The notes under the pieces are model-generated. The model made no database searches. It was not told the origin of the DNA and was given only the letters and a program-made list of their open reading frames with translations. Positions 15,816 through 17,707 of a stretch of 64,000 bases of DNA are shown here, one piece after another (position 1 is the stretch's first letter; every line of letters begins with the position of its first letter). The DNA comes from Chloroflexota bacterium (GTDB lineage Bacteria > Chloroflexota > Limnocylindria > QHBO01), in contig JBBDXT010000004.1 in NCBI GenBank assembly GCA_040902225.1, positions 640,965 to 704,964 on the forward strand, in the 5' to 3' direction. Position numbers and translations under genes: made by a program.

Positions 15816-16955
15816 ATGGCACGCGTCGTCATCCTGGGGGCCGGGTTCGGCGGCATCGCGACCGCGACAGCCCTCCGCGAACAGCTTGGCGATGCCGATG
15901 AGATCGTCCTCGTGGATCGCCGCGACGACTTCGCGATGGGGCTGCGCAAGACGTGGGCGATCCTCGGCATCTCGCCGATCGCGTACGGCACCCGCTCGCT
16001 GGCGAGCCTCGCCGCCCGCGGCATCACGGTGCTGCAGGGGACAGTCATGGGACTCGATCCTCGAGGCCGGACGGCCAGCGTCGACGGGACGGTGCTGGGG
16101 GCTGATGCACTGGTTGTGGCACTGGGTGCCGAGCAGGCCATGGACGCGATCCCGGGCCTGGCGGAGCACGGCCATAACGCCTGGGATCGATCTCATCTCG
16201 ACCAGGTCCACGGGCTCGTCGACGCCTTTCGCGGAGGACGGGTGGTGGTCGGCATCTTCGGCACGCCCTACCCGTGTCCCCCAGCCCCCTATGAGCTCGC
16301 GATCCTGCTGGCCGAGCGGTTCGACGCGCGCGGCATCCCTGCCCAGGTCACGGTCTTCGCGCCCGTCCCGGTCGTCCTGCCGATCCTTGGCGCGGCCGAC
16401 TGCGTCCCGCTCGATTCCCGGCTCGAGGAGCGCGGCATCACATTCCTGGGCAATCGTCTGGCGACCGCGGTGACCGCCCGGGCCGTGCAGTTCGGTCCGG
16501 ACGAGCAGCTCCCGTTTGACCTGCTGCTGGCGGTCCCGCCGCATCGGTGCCCATCCATCCTGGTGGAGGCAGGCCTCGCGGCAGAGGGAGGGTGGGTCAA
16601 GGTGGATCGAGCGACCCTGGAGACCGAGTTTGCCGGCATCTATGCCATCGGGGACTCGACGGTCATTCCGCTGGCCAACGGGATGCCGCTGCCGAAGGCC
16701 GGCCTCTTCGCCCAGAAGGAGGGCGAGACGGTTGCCGCCCGGATTGCGGCCGTCCTGCGGGGCGAGACGCCGACCGCCGCGTTCGACGGGCAGGGTGCGT
16801 GCTTCATCGAGATGGGCAATGGCGAGGCAAGCACCATCTCCGGCGACTTCTTCGGCGACCCACCGTCAGTGGCGCTCTCCGTGCCCGACGCGCAACAGCG
16901 TGCCGCCAAGGAACAGTTCGAGATGGAGCGCCTGGCTCGCTGGTTCGACGGCTAG
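15816..16955 (+). CDS. Sulfide:quinone oxidoreductase-like flavoprotein
   Basis: A 379-residue protein of the SQR/flavocytochrome-c-sulfide-dehydrogenase fold. The FAD-binding VILGAGFGGIATA is at the very N-terminus, an Asp-Arg at the end of beta-2 contacts ribose, and IYAIGDST near residue 278 is the C-terminal FAD motif. The Y-P-C-P-P-A-P-Y-E segment near 153 matches the conserved Cys region of SQR-like proteins. Other Cys present (PHRCPS, GADC region) do not clearly make the three-Cys set of a bona fide SQR, so the electron donor is uncertain. It may be peripheral on the membrane. Confidence 0.8.
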   Translation: MARVVILGAGFGGIATATALREQLGDADEIVLVDRRDDFAMGLRKTWAILGISPIAYGTRSLASLAARGITVLQGTVMGLDPRGRTASVDGTVLGADALVVALGAEQAMDAIPGLAEHGHNAWDRSHLDQVHGLVDAFRGGRVVVGIFGTPYPCPPAPYELAILLAERFDARGIPAQVTVFAPVPVVLPILGAADCVPLDSRLEERGITFLGNRLATAVTARAVQFGPDEQLPFDLLLAVPPHRCPSILVEAGLAAEGGWVKVDRATLETEFAGIYAIGDSTVIPLANGMPLPKAGLFAQKEGETVAARIAAVLRGETPTAAFDGQGACFIEMGNGEASTISGDFFGDPPSVALSVPDAQQRAAKEQFEMERLARWFDG

Positions 16956-17053: not shown

Positions 17054-17707
17054 ATGGATCTTCTCGACCGAATCGATGCGCTCATCGCCGAGCGCCATCT
17101 GCTGAAGCACCCGTTCTATACCAAGTGGCGCGCTGGCGAGCTCACCCGCGACGAGCTCCAGGAGTACGCACGCCAGTACTACGCCTTTGAATCGACCTTC
17201 CCGCGGCTCCTATCGGCGCTGCACACTCGCTCAGAACGCCCCGACGTGCGTCAGTCCCTGCTCGACAATTTGTGGGACGAAGAGCACGGCGAAGTCAACC
17301 ATGCGGAGATGTGGCTGCGCTTCGGCGAGGGGATCGGCGTCGAGCGAAGCTCCGTGCGCTCAGCTCCTGCCAATGACGGCACGCGGGCGCTGCTGGAGAC
17401 CTACTGGTCGGCCGTTTCGGATGGGCCGATCGCGGCTGGCATTGCGGCGCTGTACGCGTACGAGGGACAGGTCCCCGAGGTTGCGAGCGAGAAGATCCGC
17501 GGCCTTGTCGAGCAGTACGGCATCGACGATCCGAGGACGCTGGCGTTCTTCACGGTGCACTCGACTCTGGATGTCGAGCACTCGGGTGCCGAACGCTCGA
17601 TGATCTCGGACCTGGCGCCCACCGCCGCCGACGAGGAGGCGGTCCTGGCGGCCACGCGAGCTGCGCTCGATGCCTGGTGGGGATTCCTGGACGCGGTGAA
17701 CGTCTGA
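17054..17707 (+). CDS. CADD-type diiron enzyme (para-aminobenzoate synthase candidate)
   Basis: A 217-residue heme-oxygenase-like helical protein. Numbering it against the Chlamydia CADD protein as I remember it, every key residue is present at a constant offset of -5: iron ligands Glu76, His83, Glu137, His169, Asp173 and His176, the sacrificial Tyr22, and Lys147. In Chlamydia, CADD makes para-aminobenzoate for folate from one of its own tyrosines with O2, bypassing PabABC. Function here is inferred from residue conservation. TenA and PqqC are relatives but lack this residue set. The long upstream open frame back to 16547 is spurious; ATG 17054 has a strong ribosome site. Confidence 0.82.
   Translation: MDLLDRIDALIAERHLLKHPFYTKWRAGELTRDELQEYARQYYAFESTFPRLLSALHTRSERPDVRQSLLDNLWDEEHGEVNHAEMWLRFGEGIGVERSSVRSAPANDGTRALLETYWSAVSDGPIAAGIAALYAYEGQVPEVASEKIRGLVEQYGIDDPRTLAFFTVHSTLDVEHSGAERSMISDLAPTAADEEAVLAATRAALDAWWGFLDAVNV

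Follow-up and report, generated by a model that had tools for sequence, protein, structure and literature searches.

A predicted CADD-type para-aminobenzoate synthase in a Chloroflexota bacterium without detected chorismate synthase

Described CADD-family enzymes and the Chloroflexota locus

The CADD family and its reaction, the self-sacrificing synthesis of para-aminobenzoate (pABA), are already known from CADD (CT610) of Chlamydia trachomatis and NePabS (NE1434) of Nitrosomonas europaea. The key residues of CADD are numbered Tyr27, Lys152, Tyr141 and Tyr170, and its metal ligands are three histidines and three carboxylates (PMC11965152). Tyr141/Tyr170 in CADD and Phe148/Phe177 in NePabS select Mn/Fe or Fe/Fe, and the NePabS F148Y variant is cambialistic, working about equally with both metal sets (Stone et al. 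2025, PMC11965152). A 2007 study found that CT610 adjoins folate genes (PMC1971073), and a study of Rickettsia suggested that this family may supply pABA where chorismate is not made (PMC5615194). Here we describe a member of the family encoded at positions 17054 to 17707 (+ strand, stop codon included) of a 64,000-nucleotide stretch of a Chloroflexota genome (the window, G000:C4:640965-704964). The gene very probably encodes a self-sacrificing pABA synthase that is the source of pABA in this cell.

The window protein is 40% identical to CT610 over 214 aligned residues and shares with it the six metal ligands, the sacrificial Tyr, the Lys and the relay aromatics, but it has Phe165 in place of CADD Tyr170, and its host lineage differs in lacking PF00425, AroC and AroB. 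With NePabS it shares, by alignment offset, the equivalents of Tyr25, Lys159, Tyr41, Tyr45 and Trp99 as well as a Phe at the second metal-selecting position, whereas NePabS Phe148 is replaced by Tyr136. The loop of about 10 residues that NePabS has and CADD lacks (PMC11965152) is also missing from the window protein, whose alignment with CADD shows no gap in that region. The Rickettsia protein fol_rel_CADD ("frC") is likewise a TIGR04305 member in a lineage without chorismate synthesis, but its locus is degraded in almost all genomes (PMC5615194), whereas the window has an intact gene and its host genome encodes FolP, FolC and FolB. PqqC, TenA and BesC have the same heme-oxygenase-like fold (Z about 20-27), but the window protein falls far below the curated cut-offs of those families.

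The original prediction, made from the sequence alone, saw part of the novelty in the lineage. This was not borne out, as Chloroflexi are already listed, with Sphingomonas and Nitrosomonas, among the carriers of CADD (Stone et al. 2025, PMC11965152); its remark that homologues are known from Nitrosomonas agrees with the description of NePabS in the same source. What this description adds is the setting of shikimate-route loss and the Tyr136/Phe165 pair. In the open-licence PMC literature we found no description of CADD with shikimate-pathway loss outside Rickettsia, nor of the shikimate-less Chloroflexota setting and the relation between Lys and PabB reported below.

Family assignment, fold and active site

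The open reading frame translates without internal stops into a protein of 217 amino acids, which in a search of NCBIfam passed the model TIGR04305 (fol_rel_CADD; 244.4 bits, 8.9e-73, cut-off 200). Pfam matches were to Haem_oxygenas_2 and TENA_THI-4, and matches among solved structures were to 1rcw/CT610 (2.6e-53) and to two entries named "4-aminobenzoate synthase", 8va9 (3e-53) and 9pj4 (3.5e-50). An AlphaFold2 model computed from 37 sequences (pLDDT 97.4, pTM 0.92) has the CADD fold: it superposed on three CADD entries with Z 33.8-34.4 at 1.0 A (1rcw: Z 34.4, 1.0 A, 214 residues aligned), PqqC being the next family at Z 27.2. The models of PqqC (TIGR02111, 66.2 bits against a cut-off of 240), BesC (NF042919, 44.2 against 500) and TenA thiaminase II (TIGR04306, 18.6 against 130) all scored well below threshold. 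The closest named homologue, at 95% identity, is from Chloroflexi bacterium MGR_bin359 (L034), and the named relatives are metagenome bins of environmental origin. The host is thus a Chloroflexota lineage represented in metagenomes, a narrower finding than the free-living bacterium of the original prediction. The assignment to the CADD family made in the original prediction is thus confirmed by the family model, the structure matches and the fold.

A scripted reading of the alignment with CT610, which has no gap across the functional positions, gave an offset of -5 and the residues Y22, Y38, Y42, E76, H83, W87, Y136, E137, K147, F165, H169, D173 and H176. Six ligands, Tyr22, Lys147 and this offset had all been predicted correctly; the equivalent of CADD Tyr170, absent from that list, is Phe165. 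Tyr22 (codon at 17117-17119; this and all following codons on the + strand) corresponds to CADD Tyr27 and NePabS Tyr25 and is the predicted source of the pABA ring. Lys147 (17492-17494), equivalent to CADD Lys152 and NePabS Lys159, is the predicted amine donor. The six CADD ligands, which we take to be E81, H88, E142, H174, D178 and H181, correspond to Glu76 (17279-17281), His83 (17300-17302), Glu137 (17462-17464), His169 (17558-17560), Asp173 (17570-17572) and His176 (17579-17581), respectively. Tyr38 (17165-17167) aligns with the essential Tyr41 of NePabS, and Tyr42 (17177-17179) and Trp87 (17312-17314) align with Tyr45 and Trp99, which have been proposed to form a radical relay (PMC11965152).

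Conservation of these positions was assessed among the best 80 of 390 relatives retrieved by scanning a collection of genomes from 84,980 species. The equivalents of E81, H88, E142 and H174 are present in all 80 homologues and those of D178 and H181 in 79, the sole exception (L036) being a protein cut off at a contig end; all six are invariant across the 37 rows of alignment A2. Since the ligands are nearly invariant among the homologues, their match in the window protein is not due to chance. The sacrificial Tyr is kept in 80/80 homologues and the Lys in 77/80.

The metal-selecting pair of the window protein is formed by Tyr136 (17459-17461), equivalent to CADD Tyr141 and NePabS Phe148, and Phe165 (17546-17548), equivalent to CADD Tyr170 and NePabS Phe177 (roles from PMC11965152). 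This mixed pair occurs in neither of the characterised wild-type enzymes and is the same as that of the NePabS F148Y variant, by analogy with which the window enzyme is predicted to be cambialistic. Among the 80 homologues, Tyr/Phe is the commonest combination (64), followed by Phe/Phe (10) and Tyr/Tyr (6), with no case of Phe/Tyr; in PMC11965152, the commonest pair is studied as an engineered variant only.

Folate and shikimate genes of the host genome

The host assembly comprises 2.28 Mb in 7 contigs and is 99.37% complete with 0.88% contamination. The search for folate genes covered FolP (DHPS), FolC and FolB and found all three together: FolC (TIGR01499, 308 bits against a cut-off of 163) immediately precedes FolP, and FolB (TIGR00525, 109 against 72) immediately follows it. 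No chorismate-binding enzyme (PF00425, comprising TrpE, PabB, MenF and kin) was detected in the genome, the same model being positive in 14/14 control genomes. The only Aminotran_4 gene is IlvE (TIGR01122, 345 bits against 246), and the genome therefore has no PabC. Chorismate synthase (AroC, PF01264; 14/14 controls positive) and dehydroquinate synthase (AroB, PF01761; 11/14 controls positive) were not found either. The bacterium has thus apparently lost the usual pABA route and, judged by AroB and AroC, also the shikimate pathway upstream of it. The original prediction had raised a possible replacement of PabABC and suggested looking for pab and folate genes in the full genome; with this pattern of presence and absence, replacement of PabABC by CADD in the host is well supported at the level of sequence and gene content.

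The absences are shared by relatives. All five genomes of the window's family that carry canonical CADD, and likewise G275, lack PF00425, PF01264 and PF01761. Besides the host, the canonical-CADD carriers concerned are G026 (of the host's genus), G399, G400, G006 and G275. In contrast, all 8 genomes tested from families f50, f70 and f17 whose CADD keeps the Lys have AroC, AroB and a chorismate-binding enzyme. Two further members of the window's family (G082 and G090) lack AroC, AroB and PF00425 and also lack canonical CADD, and G297 is likewise negative for AroC and AroB but carries enzymes of PF00425.

By analogy with CADD and NePabS, the dimetal centre (E76, H83, E137, H169, D173 and H176) would activate O2 with electrons from a reductant, and the oxidising hole would travel via nearby aromatics to Tyr22. 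The side chain of Tyr22 would then be cut at CA-CB, leaving Gly in the protein and becoming the ring and carboxyl carbon of pABA, with the amine supplied by the side chain of Lys147, which would be left as aminoadipate. Each protein molecule would yield at most one pABA and would need O2 to do so, and FolP would join the product to pterin. Because AroC and AroB are absent and the lineage appears to make no chorismate, the aromatic ring would have to enter as tyrosine imported by the cell.

Loss of the lysine and presence of PabB

The three homologues without Lys152 (L068, L079 and L083) have Val at this position and also Phe at the positions of Tyr43, Tyr47 and Tyr141. The PabB model (TIGR00553) was run on 50 of the 80 homologue genomes, metagenome-assembled genomes whose completeness is not given. 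PabB exceeded the cut-off in exactly 3/50, namely the genomes of these three proteins, and in 0/47 of the Lys-bearing genomes (Fisher p = 5e-5, not corrected for kinship). As TIGR00553 passes its cut-off in only 4/14 control genomes, and so on its own misses many PabB, motif typing was added. There were 59 matches in the 50 genomes, of which 41 scored above 170 bits and 40 were fetched and typed; the 41st belongs to G430, which is HR29, whose TrpE was typed separately, and typing was confined to matches above 170 bits, the 18 weaker ones scoring like isochorismate synthases. We took PIAGT as the mark of TrpE and P[IM]KGT as that of PabB; in Escherichia coli, PabB reads PIKGT and TrpE reads PIAGT. 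Among the 40 enzymes typed, the three PabB carry PMKGT and the other 37 carry PIAGT. Typed matches with no motif were those of L148 (one fragment) and of L147, L149 and L155 (fragments).

A fourth case of Lys loss was found in G297, whose CADD (L014) has Thr at this position and whose PabB scores 368.8 bits against a cut-off of 328.4 and reads PIKGT. The remaining typed full-length enzymes of the CADD carriers in the phylum are TrpE or isochorismate synthase. This pattern fits the self-sacrifice model: the amine-donating Lys has disappeared in PabB-bearing genomes, and in those that retain it no PabB was found. The Lys-lost, PabB-bearing genomes (4/4 found) offer natural controls for that model. 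All four Lys-lost proteins keep every metal ligand and persist in PabB-bearing genomes, the relay tyrosines being lost in three of them.

Phylum-wide survey and alternative explanations

Among 399 Chloroflexota genomes, TIGR04305 passed its cut-off in 12, and G148 (195.8 bits) was counted as a thirteenth. PF00425 was present in 358 and DHPS (E <= 0.001) in 312, of which 307 were counted after removal of five weak rows. Of these 307, 33 lack PF00425: four have canonical CADD, four a short divergent form and 25 neither. The FolP-bearing genomes without a chorismate-binding enzyme or either form of CADD include, for example, G095, G156, G163, G184 and G253 (family f39).

Several observations weigh against the window gene being the pABA source of its host. 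The enrichment of canonical CADD in the PF00425-negative set is weak (4/33 against 8/274, Fisher p = 0.03, kinship not corrected), and a wide anticorrelation of CADD and PabB over the phylum was dropped for this reason. Since 25 of the 33 genomes have neither CADD form, salvage of pABA or another route seems common in PabB-less Chloroflexota, and as most PabB-less, FolP-bearing genomes are without CADD, the absence of PabB is not on its own proof of replacement. The four Lys-lost proteins form one group in the tree (support 82/93), so their association with PabB represents one or two evolutionary events rather than four. Finally, the genes scanned around the window CADD are not folate genes, whereas CT610 clusters with such genes (PMC1971073).

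The strongest alternative is that the protein is an HDO-fold oxidase acting on another substrate, in a cell that obtains pABA or a folate precursor by salvage from the environment. The 25 genomes must have a different source of pABA, the HDO fold supports many different reactions (PMC13108848), and the persistence of the four Lys-lost relatives suggests that some members may have another role. However, the sacrificial residues Tyr22 and Lys147 are retained in the window protein along with the essential Tyr38, the PqqC, BesC and TenA models score far below their cut-offs (66 against 240, 44 against 500 and 19 against 130 bits), and Lys is kept in PabB-less genomes and lost in PabB-bearing ones. 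We consider this explanation unlikely.

Less likely still is that PabABC and the shikimate genes exist in the organism but are missing from the assembly or were missed by the models. The assembly is not closed, and the low recovery of controls by TIGR00553 would be in keeping with missed genes. Yet the completeness and low contamination of the assembly, the detection of PF00425 and PF01264 in every control and the recurrence of the same absences in five other canonical-CADD genomes all argue otherwise, and in other CADD genomes the chorismate-binding enzymes were classified by motif as well as by cut-off. Catalytic formation of pABA, with free tyrosine or some other small molecule as substrate instead of self-sacrifice, would, it can be argued, avoid the cost of one protein per molecule of an essential vitamin, but with both sacrificial residues kept we regard it as highly improbable.

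Gene neighbourhood

A gene for a flavin-dependent pyridine-nucleotide-disulphide oxidoreductase (15816-16955, + strand) ends 98 bp upstream of the CADD start and weakly resembles type III sulfide:quinone reductase (SQR; 139 bits, below the model cut-off of 525). The flavoprotein is a possible but unproven electron donor for CADD. Only in L034 and L036, the nearest relatives, is a similar gene found close to CADD, and the proposal of a dedicated partner was dropped on this account. Ten of the larger open reading frames of the window gave no sign of aerobic respiration and so were uninformative on this point.

Conserved neighbours in other clades (a response regulator with a histidine kinase, an ABC ATPase and an amylase) showed no link to folate and were set aside. 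In Tepidiforma-like Chloroflexota (L064 and L048, with kin L058, L068, L070, L072, L073, L077-L079, L083, L086, L088, L089, L093 and L101), CADD adjoins TrpS and/or TrpE, a neighbourhood of aromatic amino acids rather than folate. A working PabB beside CADD in these genomes was rejected, as the genes near TrpS are TrpE by TIGR00564; isochorismate synthases are also present, away from the CADD locus.

Short divergent forms and archaeal relatives

Within the window's family, sister genera carry short relatives of CADD (L116-L125), as does family f8 (L022, L023, L026 and L029). All 14 keep the equivalents of Tyr27, Tyr43, His88, Trp92, Glu142, Lys152 and His174, but about 15 residues preceding the His88 motif are deleted and the Asp178/His181 pair, which belongs to the last ligand helix, is missing. 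L022, the only short form scored against NCBIfam, reached 123.7 bits, below the TIGR04305 cut-off. Four short-form genomes have DHPS and lack PF00425, and in G066 and G404 the chorismate-binding enzymes belong to the PIAGT type. A role of the short forms in pABA synthesis is a lead only.

Canonical CADD was also found in ten bins of Thermoplasmata archaea (L063, L069, L081, L087, L094, L095, L100, L104, L106 and L108). These proteins keep every listed residue and cluster together in the tree (100/97), the bins being taken as assembled.

Implications for the family

The window's lineage offers a clean genomic setting for the question that CADD poses, namely why a whole protein should be spent on one molecule of pABA. 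With PF00425, AroC and AroB absent, the answer here may lie in a complete lack of chorismate synthesis. A broader and more speculative possibility, which we put forward tentatively and consider somewhat doubtful, is that whole environmental lineages make folate without the shikimate pathway, importing aromatic amino acids and turning protein-bound tyrosine into pABA. The window's genus would do so by the classical enzyme and its sister genera by a shorter, unannotated relative with the Tyr and Lys retained but a different metal site. If this were true, pABA synthesis by self-sacrifice would tolerate more than one design of metal site.
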